Shown: piece by piece, positions 1,907 through 20,715 of the stretch
Position numbering within the stretch: position 1 is the first letter of the stretch
How the letters are laid out: every line of letters starts with the position of its first letter
Source of the DNA: Thermodesulfobacteriota bacterium
GTDB lineage: Bacteria > Desulfobacterota > Thermodesulfobacteria > Thermodesulfobacteriales > Thermodesulfobacteriaceae
Direction: 5' to 3'
NCBI GenBank assembly: GCA_030550555.1
Contig: JAUQPD010000020.1
Location: 1-39,675 of the forward strand
DNA: 39,675 bases
Notes under the pieces: model-generated
Seen by the model: only the letters and a program-made list of their open reading frames with translations
Database searches by the model: none
What the model was told of the DNA's origin: nothing
Made by a program: the position numbers and the translations under genes

Positions 1907-4900
1907 TTAGGCTGGAGCTAAGGCGACTGTTGAGACTTTATATTCGGGTGTATCCATAAGTTCATCAAGGCCTGGACTGACGAGGATGTTTGTGAGAGCG
2001 CTATCAAAGTGAAAATCAGTAAAGAGTAGACCTTTTGGAACTCTGGAAGTAATGTGAGCCCTAAAGAATACTTCACCTCTCTTATTCCAAACTCTCACTT
2101 TCTGCCCTTCGTGTATTCCTAAGGTCTTAGCATCTTCTGGATTGATATCTATTACGGGCTCTGGATAAAGCCTCATAAGAGGTTCAGCTCTTCTTGTCAT
2201 ACTGCCAATGTTATAGTGCTCAAGTTTTCTAATTGTTACCAGCACAAAGGGGAATTCTTCTGTGGGTTCTTCAAGGGGTGGCACATGCTTTGCCAATGCT
2301 AAGTGGATTTTACCTTTGGGGAATCCTGAAGTAAAGAGAATATCAGTTCCTGGATGATTTATATCCGGACAGGGCCATTGAATTCCTCTTTCCCTAAGAC
2401 GTTCATGATTTATTCCAGCCCAACCGGACCAAACCTTTCCAATCTCAAGAGCGATATCAGCAGGAGATTCATACCTCCAATTATAGCCAAGTTTTTGGGC
2501 AAGCTTTGTCAAAATCAGCCAATCAGGCAGAGCTAAACCTGGCGGAGAGACTGCCCTCTCAAAGAGCTGAACCCTTCGCTCACCATTTGTAAAGGTTCCA
2601 CTCTTTTCAAAAACACAACCTGCAGGAAGAACCGCATGGGCAAACTTACCAGAAAGGGGCATGAAGATATCCTGAACAACAAGAAATTCAAGGTTATGAA
2701 AAGCTCTCCAGACCTCTGTGATATCTCCATGACTCATAGCTACGTCATACCCCATCAAATAAAGAGCCTTTACTTTGCCCTCAAGAGCACCAGATAGGAG
2801 TGCAGGTAAGGTCTTACCTTTTTCTGTTGGTATCACATCCTGCCAGACCTCTTCAAAGGTCCGCTTTACTGAATCATCCTGATAATTTTGATATCCAGGA
2901 AGCACATAGGGCAGTCCTCCCATATCGCAGGCACCCTGAACGTTGTTTTGGCCTCTAAGGGGCATAGCTCCACATCCCGGTTTTCCCCAGTACCCACATA
3001 GAGTTGCTAAGTTCGCACAAGCCATTGCAGTGTAGGAACCAGAGCGATGTTCAGAAACCCCAAGACCCCAGAGAATTAATGCCCTTCCGGCTTTTGCATA
3101 TAAATAGGCGGATTGCTCAATAAGATAGGGCTTTACTCCCGTATATCTACTTGCCTTTGCAAGATCCCACTCTGAAAGGATATAGTGTCTATAACTTTCA
3201 AAATTCTCCACGAACTTATCTACAAACTCCTTGTCATAGAGCTCATCTCTCACAATGACATGAGCAATTCCATTGAGAAGAGGAACATTACTTCCTGGTC
3301 TTAGAGGAAGATATATATTAGCCAGGTCTGCAAAGGCAATCCTTCGTGGATCAGCCACTATAAGTTTAGCGCCTCTATCGAGGGCCTGCTTTATCTTTTG
3401 GGCAACAATAGGATGGGCCTCTGTGGAGTTAGTCCCTATCAGAAATAGAAGATTACTATTAAGGATTTCATCAAAGTCGACACAGGCAGCTCCGGTTCCA
3501 ACTGTGGCCGCAAGACCTGCGACCGATGGTGCGTGTCAGACCCGGGCAGGACAGTCCACATTGTTCGTCTTAAAAATTGATCGGGCAAGCTTCTGCATTA
3601 AATAGTTCTCTTCATTGCTAACCCGGGCAGAACACATAAAACCCATAGCAGAGGGACCATATATCTCATAGACTCTCCTAAGACCCTCTGCCACAAACTC
3701 AAGAGCAGTATCCCAACTTACCTCCCTAAAGTCCTCTTCAAGGCTTTCTCTAATCATAGGTTTTGTCAATCGCTCTGAACTCTTGTAAAATTCCCAGCCA
3801 AATCTTCCCTTCACACAGGTGTAACCATAATTTGGAGGGAGGTCTCTTCCTGTCACCTCAAGTATTGTCCCATTTTTGACCCAGACAGTAAGATTGCATC
3901 CCACTCCACAGAAGGGACAAACCGATTTAACCGCCTTAGCCTGATCTCTTTGATAGGGCACAAGAAGATCCTTCTTGGTCAGAGCCCCTGTAGGACAGAC
4001 ATCAACACAGACTCCACAATTTACACAGGCCTCGGTAAAACGAAAAGTTATATATTCGGTTGGCTTCCCCTTATCTACCACACGGAAAAAAATTGCAGAA
4101 TAGGGACAACTCCTGACACACCTTTCACAGGCAATACACTTATTTGAGTCAACTACAATCATAGGATGATCATAATTTATTGGATACTTTAACCTCTTCC
4201 TTGCTTTGCTGACTGGCACATCTTCTTTGATCAATATCTCCCTAAATTCACACTTGTGAATTCCAAGACATCCACAGCGGAGACACCTCTTTGCCTCTCT
4301 AATTGCCTCATCAGATGTTAACCCAACTAAGGCCTCTTCAAAGTCTTGAATCCTCTCTCCCGGATCCCTCTCTTCAAGACTTGCTCTTTTCTCGGGAGTA
4401 AAGAGACTGGTAAAATCCACATCAATATCTTCAATTCTCTTACCCCGCGTAAAGTCATATTTCACAGTGATCTGAGCCCGTTCTATAGCCCTTCCTTCAA
4501 GATATGCAGAAATTCCTTGAGCTGACCTTCTACCAGAGGCAACCGCTTGGATAACTGTCTTTGATCCATGAACAAAGTCTCCTCCTGCAAAAACCCAGGG
4601 AACACTTGTCTGATGAGTTTGCGGATTTACCTTTATCGTCCCCTCTCCTGTAACCTCCAACTGAGCTTCAATCTCCCCAAATTCTCTAAAGCTCGTATCT
4701 GGCACCTCACCCCAGGCTCTAAAAACGATATCAAAAACCTCTTCAAAGGCACTCTCTTCAACCACTTTTATCTCTCTCTTTTCCGTGAGAGTTGTTCTTG
4801 CAAGTGTCAATTTATATTTCTGTCCACTCTCCTCAAGTAAAAGTGGCATTGTTGCAAAATGAAATTGCACACCCTCTCTTTCTGCATAACCAATCTCCCT

Positions 4901-5989
4901 TTGAGGCACCGAAACCTCAAGTCTGGAACGAGGATGGAAAACATGCACCTCAGCTCCCAATCTCCTCAATACCCTTGAAAGTTCAACTGCAGTGTAACTA
5001 CAGCCAAGAATAGCAACCCTCTTTCCTCTGAATACTTCAGTCTCAGCAAGACCCTTACTAAAGTCAAATAGATAACGAAAACCACTCCAAGCCTTTTCTT
5101 CTCCAGGAAAGCCCTGAAACTTCTCTCTCCTTGCACCTACTGCAATGAAAACCGCTTCAAACCCTGCATCCCTTAAGTCCTTAAGAGTAAAATCTCTACC
5201 CCAAACCCTTCCCCCTACAAAATCAATACCAAGGGCAAGGATACTTGAGATCTCTTTGGCAACTATTTCCCTTGGCAACTTGAATGTTGGAATCCCATAT
5301 CTAAGAAGACCCCCTGGCTCTTTTTCCTGATCAAAAATTGTCACCTCATATCCCTTGAGTTTTAAGAAATAGGCACAACTTAATCCAGCAGGCCCTGCTC
5401 CGATTATAGCAACTCTCTTACCATTTGAAGGTGGAACTTCAAGAGGTATTTCACCATGCTCCAAACAATAGTCCGCAACAAATCTCTTGAGATTGTTGAT
5501 CGCTACTGCCTCATCAACAATTGCCCTTCTACAAATGGGCTCACAAAACCTAGGGCATACCCTTCCCACCACTGCAGGAAGAGGAAGCCTCTCCTTAATT
5601 AGAGCAAGGGCAGAACGAAAATCTCCCTTAGCAATAAATCCTATATATCCCTGAATATTCAAACCCCCAGGACAAGGGCCATGACAAGGTGCCTTACAGT
5701 CTCCATAATGATTTGCTACCATACTCTCAAGAAGCCTTCTCCTAATTCCCTTCAGCTCCTCATCCTCAGTAAGAACTGAGATCTCCCTTTTAATCTCATA
5801 TTTACAACTCCTGACAATCCCCTCCCCTTCAATCTTTACCACACAGAGTCCACAGGGATGTGTCGGCTCCCCCTTTCCCTTGAGATAACAAAGACTGGGC
5901 ACATAAATCCCAGCAGATCTTATCACCTCAAGTAAAATAGCCCCAGGCTCTACAGAGACTTTCCTCCCATTGAGCTTTATCAGAATCAT
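1907..5989 (-). CDS. fdhA: Selenocysteine formate dehydrogenase with fused 2Fe-2S, GltD-like flavoprotein and ferredoxin domains
   Basis: This is one 1360-residue protein read through an in-frame TGA at 3536-3538 (Sec818). Without recoding it appears as an 817-residue and a separate 483-residue ORF. Order of domains: 2Fe-2S domain (C34, C46, C49, C62); a Cys-rich cluster region (H94, C98, C102, C106, C145, C149, C153); a GltD-like FAD domain (GAGPAG at 197-202) with a second nucleotide fold near 325-335; two 4Fe-4S clusters (C618/621/624/628 and C655/658/661/665); the molybdopterin-domain 4Fe-4S (C691/694/698/725); catalytic ARV-Sec-HAPSVAGL; and a C-terminal molybdopterin dinucleotide domain. 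It should interconvert CO2 and formate, the first methyl-branch step. The flavin domain suggests NAD(P)H coupling, which is inference. It is the last gene of the operon, 52 nt after acsE. Mo versus W cannot be told from sequence. Confidence 0.93.
3506..3538 (-). promoter_or_regulatory. UGA selenocysteine codon and SECIS element of fdhA
   Basis: The TGA at 3536-3538 is followed after 11 nt by a perfect 7-bp stem, GGTCGCA (3524-3518) with TGCGGCC (3512-3506), closing a GGTCT loop. Spacing and loop match, as I recall it, the Escherichia coli fdhF SECIS, which also has GGUCU, and the surrounding codons are similar. This supports recoding to Sec by SelB rather than a disrupted gene. Confidence 0.93.
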
Positions 5990-6041: not shown

Positions 6042-6938
6042 CTAAACTTCCAGCCAAGCTTCAGAAAAGATAGTCTGTCCAGTGAGGACCTTTACAGTCT
6101 TATAAATCTCAAACTCCTTGGGGGAAAGACTCTTAGGATCAGGCTCATCTCCATCCATCATGCGATGAACCAAAGCAACCCAATCAGGATGTTTACCCTT
6201 TGCGATCTCAACAAGCTCCTTGTCATATACATCAAGTATAGCACTGTATATATTATATTTCATAAGCATCATAAGCATGACCCTATTGAGATAGGGTCTA
6301 AGATGGGTTGCTACACCATTTGAAACATTAGATAGGCCAATAGTACTCTTCACACCCGGTGCAATATCCTGAAGCATTGACATAAAGAGTAAGGTCTCCT
6401 GTATCTGTTCTGCACCAAGGGTTATAGGTGTAAGAATAGGATCAACCCATATCTTTTCATTGGGAATCCCATACTCGTTAAGTTTCATTATCAGATCTAC
6501 CGCAAGAGATGCTCTCTCATTTGCATCACGAGGAAGTCCCTCATGCCCCCAAAGAAGAGCTACTACATCACAACCCTTTTCTGCTGCAAAGGGACCAAGC
6601 CTCTCAAGCCGTTCTGGCTGAATAGTAATGGAATTTATCAAAATTCGTGAAGGATTCTTAGAAGCATTTACACCTGCAATCATAGCATCTGGATTTGTCG
6701 TATCCAAAGAAAGAGGAGTATCCACTACCTCCTCGACAATGCGAACGATCCAACTCGCAAGCTCAGGACCATCCTTTTTTGCAGGCCCAATGTTCAAATC
6801 CAAATAATCTGCACCAAGCTCAGTCTCCTCCTTTGCCATCTGCTGAATTGGAATAGGATTTCTCTCCTTCATTGCTTGCCCTGTTCTCTTACCCATGATG
6901 TTGATACTTTCCGCAATGCAAACAACTGTGTGCGTCAT
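6042..6938 (-). CDS. acsE: Methyl-THF:corrinoid iron-sulfur protein methyltransferase
   Basis: The 298-residue product has the pterin-binding TIM-barrel pattern of AcsE/MeTr: an opening VVCIAESINIMGKRTG, then GADYLDLNIGPAKKDG (the DxNxG-type pterin site), then LSLDTTNPDAMIAGV. It moves the methyl group from methyl-tetrahydrofolate to the cobalt of the AcsC/AcsD corrinoid protein in the cytoplasm. At 298 residues it is somewhat longer than the roughly 262-residue acetogen enzyme as I recall it; the extra length seems to lie in a C-terminal tail after about residue 235. It sits 22 nt after acsC and before fdhA, in the same direction. A G-rich ribosome-binding site lies about 6 nt before the ATG at 6938. 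Confidence 0.95.
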   Translation of the reverse strand: MTHTVVCIAESINIMGKRTGQAMKERNPIPIQQMAKEETELGADYLDLNIGPAKKDGPELASWIVRIVEEVVDTPLSLDTTNPDAMIAGVNASKNPSRILINSITIQPERLERLGPFAAEKGCDVVALLWGHEGLPRDANERASLAVDLIMKLNEYGIPNEKIWVDPILTPITLGAEQIQETLLFMSMLQDIAPGVKSTIGLSNVSNGVATHLRPYLNRVMLMMLMKYNIYSAILDVYDKELVEIAKGKHPDWVALVHRMMDGDEPDPKSLSPKEFEIYKTVKVLTGQTIFSEAWLEV

Positions 6939-6960: not shown

Positions 6961-8325
6961 TTATGAAGCCTTTTTCATCTCCTGAAGCTCTGCATAAAGT
7001 TTCTTCAATAATGCAGGAAGTCCACTTGCCTCCCTTGGACCAACTAAAATTTCCCAATCAGGCAATTCCTCCTCAAGCTCCCCCTTTATCCCTGCCAAAT
7101 ATCCAGGAATTTCAAGTTTTCTGTGCTTGACCTTCTGCTCGATCCCACAGCGCTTTACAAATTCTGCAATGCTGTCTGCTCCAAATTTTCCTGCAGCCCA
7201 AGCAGTTAATACCGAGAGACCATCAGTGTTCTTTATAAGAAGCCAAGCTGGAATCCTGCTTCCCTCAACCTCTCCCCTCACAATAAAATAGGTCAAAGCA
7301 AAATTACAAGTAATCAGAACAGGGGAGTACTCATCAGGATTATTGATCGGATAGATACCCTCTTCAACCATAAGAGGTTTCTGCGGATCCGTAAAGATAT
7401 TCATCCTCTCAACAAGTAGGTTGAAAAGCGCATCCCCTCTTAGATCAGAAAGAATTACCAAGCTCGCATACTTAGCAATGAGTAGTCCTGCAATAGAACT
7501 CTCAAGAAGATAGCTATCAGTATAACGATAAGGAAAAGTTATCACCGGAAATCCAAAGGGTTTATAACGCTTTCTTATGGCAGATCTCCTAATAATGACC
7601 AGATCCTCAAAAAGTTCCCTCAAACTCTGCGCACAAGAATCAAGCACAAGATCTTTTAGCCCCTTCTGAATTGCTCTCTCTGCAAGTTGAGAAAGCTCAT
7701 CAAGAGAACTTCCAATGATAGTTAAAGGTGTTCCAGTGTCCAATGCAAGAGAGGTCATTTCCTCAAAGTTTTCTGCCTTTGCTCCATAGATAAGTGGCTT
7801 AAAATCACCACAGACCTTGATTGCACCCTCAATCCCAGCTCTATCCCCACTCAATACCAGGGCAACCCAAGGAAGTTCCTCCCTAATCCTTTTCACTAAA
7901 TCAATGAGATTAGAACCCTTTCCTTCAACATACAAAACCTCTGGATAGAGCTTAACCCCCACCCTCTCCCACTGAAGCCTTTTGTAAAGCCCAATCCTCC
8001 TATCTATCTCCTCCCTACTCATTGAGTCCTTTATAAAAGTCCCTAAAGGAGGAGGATTCTCAAATCTCTTTTCATGCCTAAAAAGAACTATCTCCCCTCC
8101 AATGGGATATACATAATCCCCTCCACCAAGTTTAACCGTCCTAATAGGAGGAGCAGTTGCCTCAGCAATCTCCTCAACTACCTTCGGATCCACATAGGGA
8201 CAGGCACTGATCTCTGCCTGCCCAGCTGCTACCTTCATAGCAAAGGCCATACAGGTAGGATAACCGCATTCTTTGCAATTCTTCTTAGGAAGCTTTCCCA
8301 GTATCTGTATTCCCGTAAGTCCCAT
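6961..8325 (-). CDS. acsC: Corrinoid iron-sulfur protein large subunit
   Basis: The 454-residue product starts with a 4Fe-4S domain, ligands C17, C20, C25 and C42 in KNCKECGYPTCMAF...SACPY, which keeps the corrinoid cobalt in the reactive Co(I) state. A TIM-barrel domain and a C-terminal cobalamin-binding region follow. It is the gamma subunit of the corrinoid iron-sulfur protein and partners with the AcsD domain encoded upstream in the same operon. The methyl group is received from AcsE and passed to the A-cluster of AcsB. Length and motif order match the family. It lies 38 nt downstream of acsB. Confidence 0.96.
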   Translation of the reverse strand: MGLTGIQILGKLPKKNCKECGYPTCMAFAMKVAAGQAEISACPYVDPKVVEEIAEATAPPIRTVKLGGGDYVYPIGGEIVLFRHEKRFENPPPLGTFIKDSMSREEIDRRIGLYKRLQWERVGVKLYPEVLYVEGKGSNLIDLVKRIREELPWVALVLSGDRAGIEGAIKVCGDFKPLIYGAKAENFEEMTSLALDTGTPLTIIGSSLDELSQLAERAIQKGLKDLVLDSCAQSLRELFEDLVIIRRSAIRKRYKPFGFPVITFPYRYTDSYLLESSIAGLLIAKYASLVILSDLRGDALFNLLVERMNIFTDPQKPLMVEEGIYPINNPDEYSPVLITCNFALTYFIVRGEVEGSRIPAWLLIKNTDGLSVLTAWAAGKFGADSIAEFVKRCGIEQKVKHRKLEIPGYLAGIKGELEEELPDWEILVGPREASGLPALLKKLYAELQEMKKAS

Positions 8326-8363: not shown

Positions 8364-10586
8364 CTATACAAGCGGTGGAAGGTTTAATACTGGATGCCCT
8401 ACCTTTTCAATCCAGGCCTTAACTTCCTCTTCAGTAATGGCAACCGTCTCATCAGCAATTTTCTCAAGTAAATCAGGAACACCCAACTCTTCTGCTCTCT
8501 TCTGCAATTTCTCCCTTAACTCCTCTTTAAGCATTTTGGGCATCCACACAATCCTCAAGAGTCCTCCCTCTGCAGAGAGAAACTTCGGTGAAGTAATATA
8601 ATGCTTCGCAACCCCCATAAAGCCAGGAGTCACCTGACCACCACCAACCATCCCAGCAAGAGTAGAAAACTTCATCCCAGTAGGAGTCATCCCTGTATAG
8701 TCTCTATTCACTATCATTATCCCATTTACTGAAGGTAAAAGTGCAGCTATACCTTCCATACATCCACAGACTGTCATAGGATCAACAAGAATACTATAGA
8801 GGCTCACCCTCTCTACAGCACCACGAGAAGCCTGTTTCACATACTCATTAACTCCACTAAATTGCCCTAATCTTGCATCAATCAATTCACCTTTAGGTAT
8901 TGGCTGATTAGGACCTGCAGGATTAATAGAGTAACAGGCCTTTCCATCAAGCCAGTTATAGGCTCCACATGCCCCAACTCTCTCAGGTGTTATCACACAC
9001 ACGTGATTGGGAGCAAAGCTCTGACAAAGGGTGCAAGAGTAAAAAACATCTACCGATTCATCAGTCAAACCTGCAAGCCTTGCATCTCTCCTCTCATAAA
9101 CACCCTTAGCAAGCTCAAGAATCTCTCTTACCTTGTCCTCTACCGTATATATAGTAACCTGACACTTATCTACAATTGCACCATACTCCTGTCTCAATTT
9201 AGCATAAAGAATCCGCCCAATATGCTCAAATTTAAATCCCTTCTCCACTGCCTGCTTGCTGATCCTGAGCCACATGATGTTTCTCTGCCCTACATGCATT
9301 ATCCCCTGAGCATAGTTTATTAAGTGATGAAACTGCCTTTCAAGAATTGCCTCAAAGTCTTCCTGCATATTAACACCAGCAACCTTTACCACTACTGCAA
9401 AAGGCAAAACATAAGGTGGACCCTTTATTCCAAGTTTCTCAACATCACTAATCTCTGGCCCAATCACCTCAATCTTACCATCCTCCACTTCCTCAAGAGG
9501 AGCACTGAGCAACAACTCAACTGCAGGTGATCTTCCACCACCACACTCAAGATAGAGATCATCCTTTCTAACTCTCTCTCCTTCAAATGCAGGGGCATAG
9601 GCAACTGGGATGTCCAACTTCACAGAGGTAACTTTTAAACCTCTAACCTCAATTGCCCTATCCACAATCTCTGAATGAGGTACCTGAGAGACCACATGCT
9701 CATAGGTGCAAATTCCATAGGGCTTGATCTCCGGAATATCCCAATCAGAAATAACAGGAAAGCCCCAATTTATTGCCCCAGCACCATTGGCATACCATTC
9801 ATCTGACACAGGCCCAAAAGTTATAACAAAAGCAAAGGTCCTATCCTTGTTGTATAAGAGATTTCCTAAATAGTCCCCTGGCTTTATCCCACCAAAGGAC
9901 ATGGCAACCCTACAGGCAAACCCAATTGAAAAAACAACCGATGTATAATCAGGTCCAAAGGGGATCAAACGGGTGGGCCAACCAAGTTGAACTCCCGCCT
10001 CTTTCAAGAGATAGGGCATATAAATACCATTCGTCTGATCATGCATAAAGACATAAAGATTTTTCTCTAAGAGCTCCTGTGCTATCTTCTGAGCAGTTTC
10101 TTTGTCAGGTGGTGACCCCAAAATAGCTGCAAATCCAGGGGCAGTACCATCAACAAATTCAACTCCCCTTTTTCTAAAAATCACGTCATCAGCTGCCCCA
10201 AGCCAAATATTGTCTGCCAGGGGCTCCTCAGTCTTCGTGTAAAAATGGGGATTCTCTAAATACCTAATCGCCTCTATAATCTCTTCTGCGAAAAAGGTAG
10301 CCATCCCTGCATCAAGAGCTGGCCCTAAGTAAGGCAACCAGGTCTTCTCTGAAGGAATCTCAGGAAGAAGCCTTTTTGCCTCTTGCAAAACCTCTTCACA
10401 GTCTCCAAGCCTCTTTACTGGATAACCCAGGATGGCATAGATTATGGGGAGATAGTATGCAGTGTTGGGGAACCCTATCTCTGCCTCTTTCCCAAACTTC
10501 TTGACCGCCTCTTCATACTTCTCAAAGGCTCTCTCAACTATCTTATGAGCCCCTCTGATCGCAGCGGTTGCAATTATCTTTGACAT
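8364..10586 (-). CDS. acsB: Acetyl-CoA synthase catalytic subunit
   Basis: The 740-residue product is a full-length bacterial acetyl-CoA synthase. The A-cluster ligands are all present: C518, C521, C530 and C540 in SCTLCQSFAPNHVC...GACG, and the proximal/distal nickel motif C607-G608-C609 in TVCGCMEG. It condenses the methyl group from the corrinoid protein with CO and coenzyme A. In acetogens it forms a tunnel-containing complex with the CO dehydrogenase, here encoded upstream by cooS. The N-terminal domain that contacts CO dehydrogenase is present, unlike in the shorter archaeal form. GGAGGGTG precedes the ATG. Confidence 0.97.
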   Translation of the reverse strand: MSKIIATAAIRGAHKIVERAFEKYEEAVKKFGKEAEIGFPNTAYYLPIIYAILGYPVKRLGDCEEVLQEAKRLLPEIPSEKTWLPYLGPALDAGMATFFAEEIIEAIRYLENPHFYTKTEEPLADNIWLGAADDVIFRKRGVEFVDGTAPGFAAILGSPPDKETAQKIAQELLEKNLYVFMHDQTNGIYMPYLLKEAGVQLGWPTRLIPFGPDYTSVVFSIGFACRVAMSFGGIKPGDYLGNLLYNKDRTFAFVITFGPVSDEWYANGAGAINWGFPVISDWDIPEIKPYGICTYEHVVSQVPHSEIVDRAIEVRGLKVTSVKLDIPVAYAPAFEGERVRKDDLYLECGGGRSPAVELLLSAPLEEVEDGKIEVIGPEISDVEKLGIKGPPYVLPFAVVVKVAGVNMQEDFEAILERQFHHLINYAQGIMHVGQRNIMWLRISKQAVEKGFKFEHIGRILYAKLRQEYGAIVDKCQVTIYTVEDKVREILELAKGVYERRDARLAGLTDESVDVFYSCTLCQSFAPNHVCVITPERVGACGAYNWLDGKACYSINPAGPNQPIPKGELIDARLGQFSGVNEYVKQASRGAVERVSLYSILVDPMTVCGCMEGIAALLPSVNGIMIVNRDYTGMTPTGMKFSTLAGMVGGGQVTPGFMGVAKHYITSPKFLSAEGGLLRIVWMPKMLKEELREKLQKRAEELGVPDLLEKIADETVAITEEEVKAWIEKVGHPVLNLPPLV

Positions 10587-10615: not shown

Positions 10616-13171
10616 CTAACTTAAACTCAATCCCCTAAAGAGCTCCTTACAGAGCTCTATTGCCTTGGGATGCCTCATAATCAGGAGATCTCCTCCTGCA
10701 AGTGCAAGAGTTACGCCAGTTAAAGCCTCCATCAAAATTCCCCTTACCTCCTCATCTCCCATCAACTCGTCACTCGGAAGAGTAACCTCCTTTGTCTTCC
10801 AAACCTCCTTTCCAATGCTACAGATAAAGGGCACCTGAAGCTTTGTATCCTGGGCATAAAGCCCTGCAAGTCTAATCCTCTCCATTACTGAATAGGTATA
10901 CTCAAGCCCATATCCCAATGCACCTATAGAGGGATCCATAAGAACTTTATCAAGGCCAAGCCCCATATTCTCAAGTAGAATATTTAACTGTTTTGCAAGA
11001 TTCACATCAATCGGACTTGAAGCAATCACTGGAATGTTATAACCCATTGCAACCGCAGAAAGAGTCCTATAATTTGCCTCAACAACTGGTCCTACAACAA
11101 TCCCTCGCTCCCCAATAACTCCAGCAACCTCCCTCAAAACCTCTACATCCTTCTCCGCATTGCCTGAACCCCACACAATAATTGGCACATCTACCGCCTT
11201 AGCAACCGCCTCAGCAACCTTCTTTGCATGATCCGCAGGTAAGTCCAAATAATTCGGATCTGTCCCAACCAAATAAAGACAAATAGATTCTGCTCCAAAA
11301 CTCTCCACACATTTCTTTGCCCACAGAGCAGGATCGTGATAGACATCCTTAAAATACTTAGCAAGGCTCTCTGGCCAATCCTCTGGCTTCACATCCAATA
11401 TCTCCATTGCGAAATGGATTCCATTCCTCATCTCTCCTTCAAAGAAATGGAAATTAAGGGCAGAAACCCCACCAACCCTAAAGGCCCGCTCTCCCTTTCC
11501 AATAACAACCTCTCTTATCTCACCACTTGCCTTCTCCAAATAAAGCTCAGGAGAAATCGTCTTTGCTCTCTCCGAAAGAGGCCTGTATGTCCCCTTCAGA
11601 ACTCCAGCTTCAATTCTTTCCTCCTTACTTGGAACCTCCTTTACCTCAACCTCAACTTTTGCCTCATCTGCCTCAGCAACCTTTGGCTCTTCAAGAGCCT
11701 GCTCTCGCTCAGATGGCAATACTTCAGCTTCTACCTTCTCCTCAACTCTCTCAGCCTTTACCTCCTCAACTCTGGCTTCTTCCTCAACAACCTCCCTTGC
11801 CTTTACTTCTTCCTTCTCCTCCTTAACTTCAAGAGGCTTTGACTCTTTTGTCACCTCCTTAAGAAGCTCTTCTCTTCTTTCATCCAGAAGCTTTCTCTCT
11901 TCCTCCTCTTTCTTCTTTACCTTCTCTGTTAGCGTAAATAACTGCCTTTTCTCCCTTTTTCCTAAAAATTCCTCCTCAAGAAGAGCTATTCCCTCCTCAA
12001 GAGATTCCATCCCTGCCCTGAGAGTCTTTAAACTTGCCTTAAGCTCTGAGAGTATCTTTATCACAGTTACAGGCGAAAGACCACTTTCCTTCATCTCTAC
12101 CTCCACAGGAACTTCCTTCTCAATAACCTTTTCAACAATAACCTCTACAGGTTTTTCAACTATCTTCTCTACAACTTTTTCGACAACAACTTCCACAGGC
12201 TTTTCCACTACTTTTTCAACAACTTTCTCTACAACAAAAGGTGGTCTAACCACCTCATTCTCCCTTTCTCTCTCAAGACGCGCTCTCTTGACAATCTCTG
12301 GAACCGCCTCTTCCCACTCTATTGCCATTATATGAACACCCCGAACACCAGGAATCTCCTTCACCTGTTCTATTATATCTACTGCAATCTGAATTCCTTC
12401 TTCTCTCTTATCCTTTGCTGACTCAAGACGCTTAATGATCTCCTCAGAAACCTCAAGCCCTGGAACATGATCTCTCATATATTTTGCCATAGCTAAAGAC
12501 TTAGGTGGTGTTATCCCAGCAAGAATATAGACCTTGTCAAGAAGCCCAAGTTCTCTACACCTATCCATAAACTCCCTAAAGCGTTCCACATTGTAGATTA
12601 TCTGGGTCTGAATAAACTGAGCTCCTGCATTGATTTTCTTTGCAAGCCTAAGAGGTCTAAACTCATAGGGCTCAGCAAAGGGATTCTCAGCAGCTCCCAC
12701 AAAGAAATAAGGCCGAACCCCCTTTATTTCTTCTCCATTAGCAAATCTTCCCTCCTTTAGACCCTTTACCAAGGCTAACAGTTGAATTGAATCTAAGTCA
12801 TAAACAGGCTTTGCCTGTGGATGATTGCCAAAACGGGGATGATCGCCCGTGAGACAAAGTAAATTTCTAATTCCCAAAGCACTTGCTCCCAAAAGATCAG
12901 CCTGAATCCCAATTCTATTCCTATCCCTACAGGTCATCTGCATCACAGGCTCAAGCCCCTCACTCATCACAAGGACCGCACTTGCAAGACTTGAAACCCT
13001 AACAATTGCAGTCTGACAATCCGTTATATTAACCGCATCCACATATCCTCTTAGAATCCTTGCCTTTTTCTTAATAACCTCTGGATCAGCATTTTTTGGA
13101 GGACCAATCTCTGCGGTAACCGCAAATTTTCCAGCCTCAAGGACACTCTGTAAATTGCTCCTCAACTCCAA
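10616..13171 (-). CDS. metF-acsD: Fusion of methylene-THF reductase (MetF) to corrinoid protein small subunit (AcsD)
   Basis: This 851-residue frame joins two pathway proteins. Residues 1 to about 305 are MetF: FAVTAEIGPPK, the substrate and FAD-site segment LLCLTGDHPRFGNHP, and QFIQTQIIYN. Residues about 313-359 are tandem VEK and PVEV repeats, and about 360-520 is a charged, probably coiled-coil linker rich in Glu and Lys. Residues about 530-851 are AcsD, recognised by NFHFFEGEM, DPSIGALGYGLEYTYSVMER and LLIMRHPKA. MetF makes methyl-THF. AcsD is half of the protein that carries the methyl group two steps later. Both domains look intact with no frame break. I know of no described example of this pairing, but I cannot search. 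MetV lies immediately upstream, as is usual for MetF of this type. Confidence 0.93.
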   Translation of the reverse strand: MELRSNLQSVLEAGKFAVTAEIGPPKNADPEVIKKKARILRGYVDAVNITDCQTAIVRVSSLASAVLVMSEGLEPVMQMTCRDRNRIGIQADLLGASALGIRNLLCLTGDHPRFGNHPQAKPVYDLDSIQLLALVKGLKEGRFANGEEIKGVRPYFFVGAAENPFAEPYEFRPLRLAKKINAGAQFIQTQIIYNVERFREFMDRCRELGLLDKVYILAGITPPKSLAMAKYMRDHVPGLEVSEEIIKRLESAKDKREEGIQIAVDIIEQVKEIPGVRGVHIMAIEWEEAVPEIVKRARLERERENEVVRPPFVVEKVVEKVVEKPVEVVVEKVVEKIVEKPVEVIVEKVIEKEVPVEVEMKESGLSPVTVIKILSELKASLKTLRAGMESLEEGIALLEEEFLGKREKRQLFTLTEKVKKKEEEERKLLDERREELLKEVTKESKPLEVKEEKEEVKAREVVEEEARVEEVKAERVEEKVEAEVLPSEREQALEEPKVAEADEAKVEVEVKEVPSKEERIEAGVLKGTYRPLSERAKTISPELYLEKASGEIREVVIGKGERAFRVGGVSALNFHFFEGEMRNGIHFAMEILDVKPEDWPESLAKYFKDVYHDPALWAKKCVESFGAESICLYLVGTDPNYLDLPADHAKKVAEAVAKAVDVPIIVWGSGNAEKDVEVLREVAGVIGERGIVVGPVVEANYRTLSAVAMGYNIPVIASSPIDVNLAKQLNILLENMGLGLDKVLMDPSIGALGYGLEYTYSVMERIRLAGLYAQDTKLQVPFICSIGKEVWKTKEVTLPSDELMGDEEVRGILMEALTGVTLALAGGDLLIMRHPKAIELCKELFRGLSLS
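12095..12235 (-). repeat. VEK/PVEV repeat tract in the MetF-AcsD linker
   Basis: About 47 codons (residues 313-359) consist of VVEK, IVEK and PVEV units repeated with small variations. The DNA repeats imperfectly, with synonymous changes (for example AAAGTT versus AAAGTA for KV), so the protein pattern rather than the DNA seems to be conserved. It marks the start of the flexible linker between the two enzyme domains. Confidence 0.85.
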
Positions 13172-13183
13172 AGCCGTCCCTCC

Positions 13184-13852
13184 TTAAGCCTTAAGATCCT
13201 CTCTTACTCTTACCCGTAAACCTTCCCCTCCTGCAAGTCTCCAATCCTTTGGAGACCATATTTCTAAAAGCTTCTCCAACTCCCCTCTCCTTTTAAGCCT
13301 TTCAATAATTTCATGCCAAATACAGGGCATATCCTTTCTCACTTCACATCTCCCCCCCTGTGACCCACCACAGGGTCCATTGAGGAGATTCTTGGCACAC
13401 CGTGCGATAGGACATAGCCCTGCGGTGCGATCAATAATGCAATCTCCACAACCCCTACACTTCTCAACCCACTCTCCAAGAGCCACATTTGCCCCATAAA
13501 AGGTAGTATCCACCCCTGGATAGACCCTTACATCCGGATAAAGATCTGCAATCAAATTTACCCCCACACCACAAGCAAGACTTAATACTGCCTCTACCTC
13601 CTTTTTCAAAGCCTTTAACGGAACTAGATACTCAGGATCACACTGCCTTATAAAGGTCCTCTCCAAAACCTCCACCTCATCACCATTCCTAGATCTAGCA
13701 AGCCTTATTGCCTCAGCAAGAATGGCAACTTCTCTATCACCTCCTGCAGAACAAACCGCAACACACCCTCTGCACCCAAGAACAAGTATTCTTTTATAGG
13801 GCTTTATGTTCTCCAAAATTTCACTAAGTGGCCTTCTCTCTGCAATTATCAT
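13184..13852 (-). CDS. metV: MetV, zinc/iron-sulfur partner of methylene-THF reductase
   Basis: The 222-residue product has the MetV pattern: LGCRGCVAVCSAGGD near the N-terminus, a middle CRGCGDC...CPIARCAKNLLNGPCGG, then RCEV and PCIW near the end. MetV binds iron-sulfur and zinc and passes electrons to the flavin of MetF. Its start codon overlaps the stop of the upstream mvhD-like gene by 4 nt (ATGA), and the metF-acsD gene begins 12 nt downstream. MetV therefore sits exactly between an electron-input module and the reductase. Loss of the usual separate metF gene is explained by the fusion. Confidence 0.92.
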   Translation of the reverse strand: MIIAERRPLSEILENIKPYKRILVLGCRGCVAVCSAGGDREVAILAEAIRLARSRNGDEVEVLERTFIRQCDPEYLVPLKALKKEVEAVLSLACGVGVNLIADLYPDVRVYPGVDTTFYGANVALGEWVEKCRGCGDCIIDRTAGLCPIARCAKNLLNGPCGGSQGGRCEVRKDMPCIWHEIIERLKRRGELEKLLEIWSPKDWRLAGGEGLRVRVREDLKA

Positions 13853-14244
13853 CTCCTTCTTTCCTCCAACTTTTGCCCTAAAATTTTTCCATAAAAGGCC
13901 TTTGCCTTGCTCACAAAATCTCCACCATCAAGGCGATTTACATAGACAAACTCAAGACTATCCATTGGAATTCCAATCTCCTCGAGGATCTTCCTTGCTC
14001 CCAAAACCCTCCTCTCTGCCCTCTCGCTTCCCCGCCCATTATGACAAGCCCCTCTTGTGCATCCCGCAACAAGAACCCCATCTGCTCCCATCCGAAAAGC
14101 CCTCAACATGTCAGTAATCTCAATCTGACCAGAACAGGGAAACCGCCAAATCTCTAACCTTCCAAGAATTTCTCTAACATCCTCTCCTTCAATCAAATTT
14201 GTATAATTGCAACAAAGTAATACTATTTTTATAGAGTTTTCCAT
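13849..14244 (-). CDS. MvhD-like iron-sulfur subunit, second copy, cysteine form
   Basis: The 131-residue product has the MvhD/FrhD iron-sulfur fold with C11, C12, C37, C62 and C67 in LLCCNYTN, PCSGQ and GCTRGACH. MvhD proteins carry a 2Fe-2S cluster and pass electrons between a donor enzyme and HdrA. This copy diverges from the upstream one: it has no TGA, the usual CHW-x-C motif is replaced by CCNYTN, and the Arg-Val-Asp motif after CSG is absent. Its start overlaps the stop of the hdrC-like gene by 1 nt (TGATG), and its stop overlaps metV by 4 nt. That position suggests it feeds electrons to MetV/MetF (inference). Confidence 0.83.
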   Translation of the reverse strand: MENSIKIVLLCCNYTNLIEGEDVREILGRLEIWRFPCSGQIEITDMLRAFRMGADGVLVAGCTRGACHNGRGSERAERRVLGARKILEEIGIPMDSLEFVYVNRLDGGDFVSKAKAFYGKILGQKLEERRR

Positions 14245-14780
14245 CAGAACCTTACCTCCAAATACTCTGGCTTTCTAGGTAATTCAATTGCCCTGGCTGG
14301 ACACTCCATTACACAAATTCCACAGGCCTTACATACCTGTGGATCAATCTTAGCAACACCAATTGCCTCATCAATAGCAACTGCTCCAAAAGGACAAGTT
14401 CTTACACAAGTAAGACAGACGATACATTTCTTAGCATCCACCCGCGCAAAGACTCCAATACCAAAAAGCTTCTCCCAATCGATTAGACCCTTTCTAAGCA
14501 TAAAATTTCTAACCTGAAAGATCACATCCTTGGGCTTCACATCCATTGGACATACCTCAACACAAGACCCACATTGAGAACAATACCAAAGGACCTCACT
14601 GAAGAGCCTGTCCTCAAGCCCAAGAAGTAGTAAATGAATTATCTTTCTCGGATCAAAAACCAAGGTTGTCTTCTTAACAGGGCAGATCCCAGAACAGGCT
14701 CCACAGCGATAACATTGATCAAAAGTTGGAATCCTCTCTCCCATAAAATCCCTAAGTTCCCTCTCAAGCCCAGTGTTCAT
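14244..14780 (-). CDS. HdrC-like protein with extra C-terminal ferredoxin domain
   Basis: The 178-residue product has two parts. Residues about 20-100 follow the HdrC pattern, with CYRCGACSGICP and CSQCGSCVEVCP. Residues about 115-165 form a 2x4Fe-4S ferredoxin, with CIVCLTCVRTCP and CKACGICVMECP. HdrC normally links HdrA to HdrB, but no HdrB with CCG motifs is encoded here, so this protein may instead wire HdrA to the MvhD-like/MetV/MetF unit (inference). There are no membrane segments. It is coupled to its neighbours by a 4-nt overlap upstream and a 1-nt overlap downstream. Confidence 0.85.
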   Translation of the reverse strand: MNTGLERELRDFMGERIPTFDQCYRCGACSGICPVKKTTLVFDPRKIIHLLLLGLEDRLFSEVLWYCSQCGSCVEVCPMDVKPKDVIFQVRNFMLRKGLIDWEKLFGIGVFARVDAKKCIVCLTCVRTCPFGAVAIDEAIGVAKIDPQVCKACGICVMECPARAIELPRKPEYLEVRF

Positions 14781-15502
14781 CCTGTCACCTCTGAACTCTT
14801 AACTAATTTGTTGAGTAAAGGTGTTAACTCTTCCTCCTTTGCACCTGTTTTTGTAAGGAGATAGTCGATACTCTTTGGTCCCTCTTTCAAAAGAGCCTTA
14901 ACCTCAATCTCATAGAGCTTATTTTTCAAAAGAGGTAGCAGTTTTTCTTCAACCTTTCGAGAAATAGTATCCACAGAAAAATCCCTCAATTTCTTCAACT
15001 CCTTAGCAATATTACCATAAGTTGTGCGAACCTGCATGTTTTTACAAACCTCAACCGCAGAGCTCAGACGAAACTCTACATCCTCTACACTCAAACCTTC
15101 AGAAACCCCAATTTTTCCCAAATCCTTAACTCTGTTGAAAAAGACCTTTATGTCTTCAACAAGTCTTGTTGGCTCAGCAGAAGAGACCCACTCAAGCTTA
15201 AATCGCTCCTCCCTTATCCCAATCAACCTGAGAAGCCAGGTGATCATCTCACCCATAATGAGTGCTTGAAAGTTCCCATCCACATATTTACATTCTCCAA
15301 GTTTACATCCCCCAACCATTACCGCATCCGCACCATTCCTAAAGGCCTCCATTACAAAGAGAGGATCCACCCGCCCACTACACATAACCCTTATAACTCT
15401 ATGATATGGTGGATAGTTCTGGCGAGCCACCCCGGCCGCATCAGCTGCCGCGTAGCATCACCAGTGACACATAAAGCTCAATATCCTTGGCTCAAACTCC
15501 AT
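14777..15502 (-). CDS. mvhD: Selenocysteine MvhD/VhuD-type electron-transfer subunit with C-terminal extension
   Basis: The start is the ATG at 15502, followed by MEFEPRILSFMCHW, then an in-frame TGA (15458-15460) read as Sec15, then CYAAADAAGVARQNYPPYHR. Conventional calling would start at 15430 and lose the first 24 residues with the cluster motif. Ligands are C12, Sec15, C16, C41, C66 and C71. The family passes electrons from hydrogenase or formate dehydrogenase to HdrA. At 241 residues it is about 100 longer than a minimal MvhD; the extra C-terminal part is helical and ends in a winged-helix-like segment of unknown role. A GGAGG site inside the last hdrA codons lies 9 nt before the ATG, so translation is probably coupled to hdrA. 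Confidence 0.92.
15422..15460 (-). promoter_or_regulatory. UGA selenocysteine codon and SECIS element of mvhD
   Basis: The TGA at 15458-15460 is followed after 18 nt by a stem of GCGGCC (15439-15434) with GGCTCGC (15428-15422), six pairs with one bulged T, closing a GGGGT loop (15433-15429). The loop begins with GG about 24 nt after the TGA, within the usual bacterial SECIS range. Confidence 0.8.
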
Positions 15503-15504
15503 TC

Positions 15505-18500
15505 CTATCTACCTCCTTCAAGCACCTTTTCTTCTCTCTCCACCTCAAGAGCTTTCTCCCCCCTTGAAAGCCACCTTATCTGCTCAAGAAGGGCATCCGC
15601 TGTGAACCCACCAATGTCAATAGCAAAAACAGGACAGTGGGATGCACAAATTCCACAACCCTTGCAACCAGCCTTTATGACCTGAGCCTTTTTCCTCTTT
15701 TCAAGTTTTATCATCTCAATCGCACCATAGGGACAAAGCTCAGCACAAATAGAACAGCCAATACATTTTTCCTGATAGACCTCTGCAACAATTGGAGGAA
15801 CCTCTACAAAACCCTTGGCAAGAGGAATACCTGCCTTTCCACTTGCAGATCTCGCCTGAGCAAGCACTTCAGTAAGAGGCTGAGGACTATGGGCAAGACC
15901 TGCGATGTAAACTCCATCAGTTGTAGTCTCAACAGGTCTCAACTTCACATGGGCTTCAAGAATAAATCCAGATGCATCAACTGGTAACTTCAATAAATTA
16001 ATAACCTCCCCTCCCTCTGAAGGCACAATGCCCACCGAAAGCACACACAAATCTGCATCCAGCTCAAGCTCCTCACCCAATAAGACATCATAAACCCTTA
16101 CCTTGCCCTTCCTTTTACCAGCTTCAACCTTTGGTCTCCTATCCTCTGGAAATCTTATAAACTTTACCCCTTTCTTTCGGGCCTCAAAATAATACTTCTC
16201 ATAAAACCCATAAGTCCTCATATCCATGTAAAGGACATAAACCTCTGTCTCAGGAGAAATCTCCTTTATCTTTAGGGCATTCTTAATAGCCTGAACACAA
16301 CAGACCTTGCTACAGTGAGGAAGCTCCTCCCCTCTTGATCCTGCACACTGAATCATTACAACCCTTTTTGGAAATCCCCTTCCCTTCTTTGAAGAAAGTC
16401 GTTCCTCAAGCTCTAACTGAGTTATCACCCTCTCACCATCTAGAGGATAATTTTTGGGACGATACTCCTTTCCTCCTGTTGCTACGATCACCACTCCATG
16501 ATTTACAATTTCTGAAGAATCTCCAAGACGAATTGTTGACGTAAAATTACCTATATAACCCGATATAATCTCAACCCGGGCACCTTTGAAAATCCGAATT
16601 TTTGGGTGATCCTCTACCCTTTGAACAAGCTCCCTCAAAAAGGCCTGGGGATCCTCACCACTGATAAGATATCTTAAGCGTCTTAGATTACCCCCAAGCT
16701 CATTCTCCTTTTCAACCAGATATACCTGAAAACCCTGCTCTGCAAGGGATAAAGCTGAAAGCATTCCCGCAGGACCACCCCCAATAACCAGGGCAGAAGG
16801 AGTCACCTTCACCCTCTGGAGCTCAAGAGGCCTTAGCCTCCTTGCCTTTGCTACCGCCATCCTCACAAGATCTTTCGCCTTTTCTGTAGCCTTCTCCGGA
16901 TTATCAGGATGCACCCAAGAACATTGATCCCTTATGTTTGCCATCTCAATTAGGGCTATATTGAGACCTGCTTCCCGCAGAGTATCTTGAAAGAGAGGCT
17001 CATGTGTACGAGGTGTACAAGCTGACATAACAATTCTATTTAGTCTGTATTTTTTTATCTTTTCCTTTAACTGTTCCAAGGCATCCTGAGCACAGGCATA
17101 GAGCACATTTTCAGCAAGAACAACATTGGGAAGGGTTTTAGCGTAATCCCTTACCGCCTTGACATCTACAACTCCAGCAATATTTACTCCACAGTGACAG
17201 ACAAACACACCAATCCTTGGCTCTCCGCTCATCAACTCCAAGTCCTCTGGTGGATACTCCTTTATCACCGTTGAGGTCCACCTCACATCTCGCAAAAGCT
17301 CAGAAACCAGAGCAGAGGCCCCACTTGCCTGCATTACACTTTCCGGGATATCTTTAGGTCCCTGGAAAGCTCCAACCACAAACACTCCAGGCCTTGTAGT
17401 CTCAAGAGGAGCAAGATACCTTGTCTTGGCAAAGCGAAACTCATTGAGCTCTATCCCAAAAACTTCAGCAATCTTCTCCGCCTTCTCAGGAGCAGATAGC
17501 CCCACAGAGAGCACAATCATATCAAAGTGCTCCCTTCGCGGAGTGCCAGATTCATCTACATAATTTATAGCAAGTCTTCCATCAACTTTGTCAATCTTTC
17601 CAGGACGGGCTCTGACAATCCGAAATCCATGCTTATTTACCGCATTTCTAAAGGTCTCATCAAAACCCTTGCCATGGGTTCTCACATCCATAAAGAAAAG
17701 AGTAATCTCTGCAGAGGGTTCATGCTCCTTTATAACAGTTGCCTGTTTCACTGCATACATACAGCAGACACTTGAACAATAGGGTTGATTGCAGGTCAAG
17801 TCACGAGAACCAACACACTGTATATAGGCAATCTTTTTAGGATGCCTAAAGTCAGAGGGTCTGATTACTTCCCCTTCAGTTGGGCCTGCAACACAGGTTA
17901 AACGCTCTACCTCAATGCTATGAAGCACATCACTAAAGGCCTCATAGCCAAATTTTTTCAGTGACTCCCTTGGAACTTCACCAAACCCCACAGCAAGTAT
18001 TATTGCTCCCACATCAATAGTTCTTATCTCTGGTTTCTGATCAAAGTTAATAGCCTTGGGCCCACAAATATTAGCACAAAGCTGACAGGTCTGATGATTT
18101 ACCCGCAGACAGACCTCTGGATCAATATAATACTTAGTAGGAACTGCCTGCGGAAAATCTATTCTAATAGCTCTCGTAAAGGTTAGATTCGCGTTGTAGG
18201 TGTCTATAGCTAAGCGGGGACAGTATTTCATACAGTCCCCACAGGCAGTACACTTATCGGGATCTATATAACGAGGATTTACCTTTAGAGTTACCTTGAA
18301 ATCTCCAGCAGTCCCCTCAACCTTGAGGACCTCTGTCAAGGTGAGTATCTCAATATTGGGAGACCTCCCGGCCTCCACCATCTTGGGGGCAAGGATTCAG
18401 ATACTACAGTCATTGGTGGGGAAGGTCTTATCAAGCTGGGCCATTACCCCACCAATTGTTGCCCTCTTCTCAACGAGATACACATAAAACCCAAGCTCTG

Positions 18501-18588: not shown

Positions 18589-20628
18589 TTATTTCTCCTT
18601 CTCTTCAGGAGTGTATTTCACATGGGCCCCAAAACAACCAAGCCCATGAAATACTGGCACATGCTTTGGTCCCTCAAGGGCTCTCCTCATAGCCATATCA
18701 AAGAGCACCCTTGGCTTAGGTTTATCAATACCATTGATCTTTCGTCCAAAATCAATTCTATCTATCATGATGTTAGCAAACTCATTTGCGGTCCTTGCCA
18801 CCCTCCAAGACCCCATGAAATACTTCTCAATTTCGTAGAAGAGGAAATCTGTAACGACCTTACTTCCAAGGGTGGGAAAATCAGGTCCGAAGACCACTTG
18901 AACCCCTGTTGCCACAAAATACATACCAATCGCAATTGCCTTCTCACTCATCCACTGAGGAGCAGCACCCACCGCAGGGATCATCCAGAGGTCATCACCA
19001 AGTCCACCTGTGTGGTGAATTTCTGTTGCAGCAATCAGAATTCTTGAATTGTCAACACAGGCTCCCATGTGGAGAACAGGAGGACATCCAACTGCCTCAA
19101 GGACCTCTCTCAATCCCGGACCTGCAAGCTCTATTGCCTCAGGTGAGAGTAATCCTGCCATTGCCATATTCGTTGCAGAACAACCTGTTGCTAAGACAAG
19201 GACATTATTTGCTATGAGCTCCTTTGCCAACTCTACTTGAATTGGCTCATGGACCCTGTATTGATCACATCCTGCAAGAACCGCAAGCCCCCGAATTTTA
19301 CCGTTTATAATATTTTCATTTAAGGGTTTATAACTTGCCCTAAACCTTCCACCAAGGATATACATTATCGTCTCATGACTAAATCCAGCCACAATATCAA
19401 TGCTGTGCTCAGGAATTCTGACTTTCTTGGGATCCCTAAGTGGGAAACGGGATATTGCGGTCTTCAAGATCTCCTTGGCAACATCAAGAGCCCTCTTCTC
19501 ATCAAAGGGAATATGAAGAGCCCCTTCCATCATGGATATAGGACTTGTTGTAATGACAACCGTATGGAATTCTTTAGCAATATCTACAATGTTTTGCATA
19601 ACGCATTGAACATCAACTACAACCGCCTCTACCGCACCAGTAGCAATAGTCACCTCCTGTTGAATGAAGGACCCAGCAACTGGTATCCCCATCCTCATCA
19701 AAACCTCATTCCCTGTACAGCAGATCCCTGCAAGATTAACTCCGCGGGCACCAACCTTCCGAGCCTCCTCCAAGATCTCTGGATCTCTACTTGCCACTGC
19801 AAGGGCATCTGCAAGAATGGGATCATGCCCATGGACCGCCACATTAACATAATCCGGCTTTATAACCGCAGTGCCTATGTTCACCTTTGCCCTTATGGGC
19901 TGGGGATTTCCAAGAAGTAGATCCTGAAGCTCAGTTGCCAACATGCTTCCTCCCCAGCCATCAGCAAGGGCACACCTTACCGCTCCAAAGAGGATATTTT
20001 TATAATCCTGATCAACACCAACTGTTGTCCTGTGCAAGAGCTCAACTACCTCCCTATCCACTCCTCTTGGCACAACTCCATACTTTCTCCATCTCTCAAG
20101 GGTTGGCTTAGGAGCTCTATGGGTCAGGATAATCTCTCCCTCTTGCTGGGAAAAGATCGCCATAGCAGAATCCGCAAGCTTCACCAAGAGATCTTTCTCA
20201 GGAAGTGTGGGATCTACCCCAAAGGCCTGAGCAACAACTCTCAACTTACGTTTGTCTCTGATCTCAAAAGGTGCCTCTCCGTGAACAGCCTCATAAAAAA
20301 CCCGCGCAACATGTCGCCCATGGTCCGAATGAGCTGAAGTCCCAGCAGCAACCATCCTCGCAAAATTTCTGGCAACAACTGTTGCTGCAGAGGCACCACA
20401 AATCCCTTTCAACTCCTCAACACCCTCCACTATCTGACAAGGCCCCATATTACAGACCCTACAACAGGTCCCTCCCCGACCAAAAGCACAAGGTAATGTC
20501 CCCCTTCTCTCAACCCTCTTAGGCGAAGTAAGCACTTCATCTCCAAGACAACTGTATATCTCCTCAGCCACCTTGGTCTGATACTTTCCCTCTTTGGCCT
20601 TACTAAATCTCGCCCTTTCATCAATCAT
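18589..20628 (-). CDS. cooS: Ni-Fe carbon monoxide dehydrogenase catalytic subunit
   Basis: The 679-residue product is a full CooS/AcsA. Cluster D and B cysteines are present (C47, C55, C56, C59, C64, C77). The C-cluster ligand segments are all there: the His in VAVHGHDP, then GICCTGNE, DVQCVMQN, AGCDQYRVH, ATGCSATN and HMGACVDN. It reduces CO2 to CO, which is used by the acetyl-CoA synthase encoded by acsB in the same operon. The ATG at 20628 is preferred over the TTG one codon upstream because GGGGGG lies 6 nt before it. No CooC/AcsF nickel-insertion gene is nearby in this window. Confidence 0.96.
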   Translation of the reverse strand: MIDERARFSKAKEGKYQTKVAEEIYSCLGDEVLTSPKRVERRGTLPCAFGRGGTCCRVCNMGPCQIVEGVEELKGICGASAATVVARNFARMVAAGTSAHSDHGRHVARVFYEAVHGEAPFEIRDKRKLRVVAQAFGVDPTLPEKDLLVKLADSAMAIFSQQEGEIILTHRAPKPTLERWRKYGVVPRGVDREVVELLHRTTVGVDQDYKNILFGAVRCALADGWGGSMLATELQDLLLGNPQPIRAKVNIGTAVIKPDYVNVAVHGHDPILADALAVASRDPEILEEARKVGARGVNLAGICCTGNEVLMRMGIPVAGSFIQQEVTIATGAVEAVVVDVQCVMQNIVDIAKEFHTVVITTSPISMMEGALHIPFDEKRALDVAKEILKTAISRFPLRDPKKVRIPEHSIDIVAGFSHETIMYILGGRFRASYKPLNENIINGKIRGLAVLAGCDQYRVHEPIQVELAKELIANNVLVLATGCSATNMAMAGLLSPEAIELAGPGLREVLEAVGCPPVLHMGACVDNSRILIAATEIHHTGGLGDDLWMIPAVGAAPQWMSEKAIAIGMYFVATGVQVVFGPDFPTLGSKVVTDFLFYEIEKYFMGSWRVARTANEFANIMIDRIDFGRKINGIDKPKPRVLFDMAMRRALEGPKHVPVFHGLGCFGAHVKYTPEEKEK

Positions 20629-20663
20629 CAATATCCCCCCATTTTTAAGTTTACTTATTTACT

Positions 20664-20701: not shown

Positions 20702-20715
20702 GTGATTTTATTCAC
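20702..20715. promoter_or_regulatory. CRP/FNR-superfamily-like palindrome upstream of cooS
   Basis: GTGA (20702-20705) and TCAC (20712-20715) are separated by 6 nt, the half-site spacing used by CRP-family regulators. It lies at the folD stop codon, just before the hairpin and cooS. One such match in 40 kb can arise by chance. Confidence 0.25.

Follow-up and report, generated by a model that had tools for sequence, protein, structure and literature searches.

A class-wide MetF-AcsD fusion in Thermodesulfobacteriota with a linker helix that recurs on CODH

The window analysed here (a whole contig of 39,675 nucleotides from a Thermodesulfobacteriota genome) encodes a single chain in which the methylene-THF reductase MetF is joined, through a linker of ~240 residues, to AcsD, the small subunit of the corrinoid protein (CFeSP). 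On balance, we read this chain as a vertically inherited fusion that probably serves the methyl branch of the Wood-Ljungdahl pathway as a tethered assembly hub. Beyond what an earlier note on this DNA had recognised, the fusion turned out to be class-wide and old, a helix of its linker recurs on CODH, and an internal start within the linker is conserved. The component domains belong to known families; judged by the open-licence literature, the architecture and the linker are new.

The fusion gene is preceded on its 5' side by a strong Shine-Dalgarno sequence (AAGGAGGG), directly before the TTG start, and its frame contains zero internal stops. The gene and its parts are:

10616-13171, minus strand: metF-acsD fusion gene, 851 aa, TTG start, stop codon at 10616-10618
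12278-13171, minus strand: MetF domain, residues 1-298 (PF02219; alignment to PDB 1v93/3apt/6fcx; barrel in the AF2 model)
12101-12241, minus strand: VEK(V/I)VEKPVEV repeat arm, residues 311-357 (TRF 12110-12237; low pLDDT)
12092-12107, minus strand: putative internal start, ATG 12094-12092 (Met360) with GGAGG upstream (GGAG spacing; homology to the split-AcsD start)
11957-12088, minus strand: conserved five-heptad amphipathic helix, residues 362-405 (heptad statistics; model helix 367-403; genome scan)
11567-11956, minus strand: variable E/K-rich linker arm, residues 406-535 (weak protein-level constraint; mostly low pLDDT)
10619-11551, minus strand: AcsD domain (CFeSP small subunit), residues 541-851 (PF03599; PDB 2h9a_B)

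The MetF half matches PF02219 (MTHFR) over residues 7-297 with an E-value of 1.5e-43, far above the Pfam cut-off (149.6 bits against 24), and the match spans positions 2-286 of 287 of the profile, the full domain. Its AEIGPPK, LTGDHPR and FIQTQ motifs align with active-site positions of 1v93 and 3apt, and the active-site Glu, Asp and Gln positions, whose catalytic roles we take to be those generally known for MTHFR, are retained in the alignment to 1v93, 3apt and 6fcx. Domain, motifs and a MetV partner identify this half as a type III MTHFR by sequence, with predicted reductase activity. The AcsD half matches PF03599 (CdhD) at residues 554-797 (E 2e-40, also far above the Pfam cut-off) and PDB 2h9a_B with an E-value of 6.7e-76; the protein scores 359.8 with NCBIfam PRK04452.1-2, over the cut-off of 280, and falls under the cut-offs of the other NCBIfam AcsD models. 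The CdhD domain and the adjoining acsC, acsB and acsE genes assign this half to the CFeSP small subunit, again at the level of sequence. The full AcsD domain is shared with the solved small subunits AcsD/CdhD (PDB 2h9a, 4djd, 9fzy), whose chains, unlike the window protein, are ~310-325 aa long and carry neither MetF nor a linker. Structure prediction of the window protein as a single chain gave two mostly well-folded barrels and flexible, disordered arms, with no packing predicted between the domains (pTM 0.52).

The fusion lies in a cluster whose genes, all on the same strand of the window, encode the complete Wood-Ljungdahl pathway together with HdrA/FlpD/HdrC-like electron-transfer proteins:

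21646-23409, minus strand: formate-THF ligase
20715-21614, minus strand: folD
18589-20631, minus strand: CODH (AcsA; PF03063), which in the window is without the helix module
15505-18381, minus strand: HdrA-type flavoprotein
14777-15501, minus strand: FlpD/MvhD with an in-frame TGA, probable selenocysteine
14244-14780, minus strand: HdrC-like ferredoxin (profile matches)
13849-14244, minus strand: FlpD/MvhD-like protein (Pfam)
13184-13852, minus strand: metV, the MTHFR partner (PF12225), directly upstream of the fusion
8364-10586, minus strand: acsB
6961-8325, minus strand: acsC
6042-6938, minus strand: acsE
1907-5989, minus strand: formate dehydrogenase, whose sole interruption is a TGA in the VUHAP motif (selenocysteine)

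metV was found in 11 of the 11 genomes checked for a MetV partner. The Hdr-linked form of type III MTHFR MetFV likewise has MetF with a separate MetV beside HdrA/FlpD genes, and PMC10553843 cites Moorella MetFV-HdrABC as a precedent; the window MetF differs in running on into the linker and AcsD. Two selenocysteine sites accompany the cluster. The formate dehydrogenase, a selenocysteine enzyme by its motif PARV-TGA-HAP (TGA at 3536-3538, minus strand), is fused to a GltD/NuoG-like N-terminal part. The FlpD/MvhD beside HdrA has FMCHW-TGA-CYAAAD near its start and is probably a selenoprotein, and its true N-terminus is left out of the listed ORF 14777-15430 (minus strand). Elsewhere in the window's genome, a second MTHFR of 543 aa (L002, G000:C19) is a fusion of MetF with MetV (DUF5981) that most genomes of the class share. 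It too joins the MTHFR fold to another domain, but the partner is MetV rather than AcsD and identity is ~35% over the matched part; it is probably the general C1 enzyme.

MetF and AcsD share one intact frame in 32 of the 41 genomes of the class. The remaining nine comprise two in which a contig end or, in a draft genome, a frameshift interrupts the gene, four with separate genes and three without AcsD. In a sample of 395 genomes, at least 25 others of the phylum, from 11 further families, carry the fusion, so that class and phylum sample together hold it in at least 14 families. Records of its nearest relatives come from Caldimicrobium and other Thermodesulfobacteriaceae, and carriers include the finished isolate genomes of Dissulfurimicrobium hydrothermale (2,025,450 bp; PMC8780430) and Desulfurivibrio alkaliphilus AHT2 (3,097,763 bp; PMC5016858). 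Because the window comes from a draft genome, a stop or frameshift missed in assembly or sequencing has to be considered; we give this explanation practically no weight, as dozens of assemblies made independently, finished genomes of isolates among them, show the linker frame open, and the coding signal continues through the linker. The fusion that the earlier note described is thus real, a single open frame with both Pfam domains. In one 64%-complete draft (G008; L022/L169) a frameshift within AcsD breaks the fusion and is probably a sequencing error. Two drafts of the Thermodesulfobacterium group (L157 in G026 and L167 in G029) keep MetF and MetV, with no AcsD found; as one of the two drafts reaches 99% completeness, this group may have lost the pathway in these genomes.

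All AcsD domains of fused proteins form one clade (support 100/100) and, in a tree built separately, so do their MetF domains (98/84), which rules out several independent fusions. Around the closest unfused MetF proteins (L067, L146, L147) the gene order is metV-metF-acsD-acsB-acsC-acsE with the genes unfused. The simplest history suggested by these sequences is a single fusion of adjacent genes before three fused lineages parted. Four split-gene genomes, all Thermodesulfobacterium, nest within the fused clade of the AcsD tree, indicating later fission; one of them (G015) matches the finished genome of Thermodesulfobacterium geofontis OPF15 (1,634,377 bp; PMC3624685). It had been suggested that part of the linker came from an N-terminal extension that some AcsD proteins already had. 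Homologous extensions do exist, but the direction is the reverse: the AcsD proteins that carry them arose when the fusion split, and an extension predating the fusion is ruled out because split AcsD nests in the fused clade and the outgroup AcsD proteins (~310-360 aa) lack it. NCBIfam PRK04452.1-1 (442 aa) describes an AcsD without MetF whose N-terminal extension aligns to the window linker from residue 428 (the window protein scores 246, below the cut-off of 488 bits). In two other families of the phylum, AcsD carries a tether-like extension at the opposite end, a low-complexity A/K/E-rich C-terminal tail of ~215 aa (L165, 6151-7770, minus strand; L166, 7089-8708, plus strand). Desulfobulbales-type genomes have retained the fusion though metV and acsE moved out of the cluster; loss of AcsE or MetV is ruled out there, as both are encoded elsewhere in all of these genomes.

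Four parts make up the window linker: the V-E-K repeat arm, the putative internal start, the heptad helix and the variable E/K-rich arm. The earlier note described a repeat and coiled-coil linker of roughly 220 residues; the linker measures ~240 residues, and true tandem repetition covers only ~43 of them (48-bp unit, 2.7 copies). Third codon positions vary more than first and second positions in every part of the linker (ratios 3.4, 2.6 and 1.5, against 4.6-4.9 in the domains), indicating that the linker is translated. Across 71 linkers, large hydrophobic residues occupy 92% of the nine a/d positions of the helix (spacing 3-4) versus 18% of positions elsewhere, and no other segment of the linkers equals the helix's median hydrophobic contrast. 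Regular heptads extend over at least 30 residues, as in a coiled-coil module, and the model of the window protein has two low-confidence helices in the linker, at 367-403 and 415-440. The helix is kept across linker groups and is weakest in the shortest linkers. Profiles from one lineage gave strong recovery between the Dissulfuribacterales-like and Desulfobulbales-like groups and weak recovery between those two and the window's class (best E ~0.001-0.005, most >0.1). In G011 and G013 the linker is short and the genome scan with the helix profile gave no recognised match, so the module can be dispensed with. TPR repeats, many over the Pfam cut-off, are present as well in the linkers of two sets of relatives, the Dissulfurimicrobium-like group and basal members of the window's class. 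The model of a long-linker relative has a helix of 80 residues, a hairpin of helices where the conserved module lies and two helical units resembling TPR; pLDDT in the TPR parts is mostly 60-89.

A helix profile built without any CODH sequence matched, beyond the fusions and AcsD, four proteins. These were the CODH proteins of the four fission genomes and of no other genome (E 1e-8 to 5e-5), with the helix at their N-terminus. A scan of 22 genomes, using a profile that included two CODH helices, found one copy of the helix in each helix-bearing fused genome and two in every fission genome, one on AcsD and the other on CODH; elsewhere in the window and in the fused genomes, other proteins gave only weak chance matches. 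Over 30 further CODH sequences in which the N-terminus could be seen lack the extension. Read from these sequences, AcsD kept the helix when its covalent tie to MetF was broken, and CODH gained another copy. Most simply, the linker helix would be an assembly module holding pathway enzymes together, its binding suggested by the recurrence on CODH. Against this, heptad helices may resemble one another by convergence, the pattern on CODH comes from one clade of four genomes, and the window-protein model has low confidence at the helix and predicts no arrangement of the domains.

The same evidence bears on a plainer account, which we regard as unlikely though well worth weighing: neighbouring operon genes may have been joined in a near-neutral event that ties their expression only, with the linker as unconstrained filler. 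That metF directly precedes acsD in the nearest unfused relatives, that the C-terminal linker arm varies freely and that one fission occurred without loss of the pathway would all fit such an event. Retention across ~14 families, conservation of helix and TPR, and duplication of the helix onto CODH just where the covalent link was lost argue against it.

Initiation at the ATG at 12094 would yield a helix-AcsD protein of 492 residues. In 11 relatives, the window included, an in-frame linker ATG is preceded by GGAG beginning at -10 (10/11) or -12 (1/11), and the residues encoded at the GGAG site vary (VEV, LEG, WEE, LEE, LET, GEE). The motif lies in the same range at only 5 of the 201 other ATGs of these genes (Fisher 6e-15, a value overstated since the genes are related). 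Split AcsD begins MQNEK... after a G-rich Shine-Dalgarno sequence (GGAGG in 3/4), and the linker ATG of the fused genes is homologous to this true start. When upstream codons were shuffled synonymously, the P of a Shine-Dalgarno-like match was 0.25-0.7 in most genomes, which alone is not decisive; the case for an internal start is carried by the fixed position despite changing peptides, the rarity at other ATGs and the homology to the split start. These patterns suggest that the fused gene probably also makes free helix-AcsD, giving two products. Such a start would offer a simple route to fission, in which a stop is gained upstream of a start already working.

In the assembly hub that we favour, MetF would work with MetV and probably with the adjoining HdrA/FlpD electron-input proteins. 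One flexible arm would hold MetF to the coiled-coil-type helix and a second would hold AcsD, whose pairing with AcsC would make up the corrinoid carrier. By self-association or by docking with other pathway enzymes, the helix would keep the local concentration of the methylene-THF reductase, the corrinoid protein and, via the latter, ACS/CODH high. The internal start of the Caldimicrobium branch would probably add free helix-AcsD, leaving AcsD partly tethered and allowing stoichiometry to differ. The fusion does, as had been proposed, tether the methyl-THF producer to the methyl carrier, AcsD being one half of that carrier. The further proposal that the chain channels the methyl group, so that methyl-THF made by MetF would stay within the assembly on its way to AcsE/CFeSP, strikes us as improbable. 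Its appeal is that the MetF and AcsD domains act two steps apart and that one genome (G017) has both the MetF-AcsD and an AcsC-AcsE fusion, two chains holding all domains from MetF to the corrinoid protein; that lineage has the whole stretch from methylene-THF to methyl-corrinoid on two chains, which are expected to pair. However, the predicted linker arms are disordered as well as long, the window encodes AcsE separately, an untethered AcsD product is probable, metV and acsE have relocated in Desulfobulbales-type genomes while the fusion stayed, and nothing points to a tunnel. We favour proximity and assembly over channelling, with any benefit arising from proximity. AcsC-AcsE fusions (L150, L153 and L154 in Thermodesulfobacterium; L103 in a Dehalococcoidia MAG) likewise join methyl-branch proteins covalently, with an E/K-rich charged linker in the Thermodesulfobacterium cases, but they involve a different protein pair and, unlike MetF-AcsD, no heptad helix was seen in them. 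More tentatively, the linker helix (with TPR in relatives) might be a dedicated Wood-Ljungdahl metabolon scaffold, carriable by MetF-AcsD or, after fission, by AcsD and CODH, with two products by internal initiation setting the tethered share of corrinoid protein; we think this possible but would not count on it.

The earlier note knew of no described fusion of this pair, and our search of the open-licence literature also found none, though a description may exist elsewhere; a 2026 study of Wood-Ljungdahl pathway evolution in the phylum makes no mention of it (PMC12827605). The D. alkaliphilus gene at the position of the fusion is annotated only as methylene-THF reductase (PMC5016858). TDIS_1006 of Thermosulfurimonas dismutans, three genes from acsE, is annotated as MTHFR (PMC4911364), and we infer that it is a MetF-AcsD fusion. 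In Desulfurivibrio dismutans AMeS2 the Wood-Ljungdahl cluster RS08760-RS08740 is expressed (PMC12142623).

Naming the protein after one of its halves, or passing over the fusion, affects annotation and calls of pathway presence for a major carbon-fixing group. The fusion also makes it testable whether the enzymes of the Wood-Ljungdahl methyl branch work in a physical assembly. Nature has run the experiment both ways, with the chain fused in three lineages of autotrophic sulfur bacteria and split in a fission clade that retained the helix and bears it on CODH as well, and cultured isolates exist for both states; the internal start would tune the tethering.
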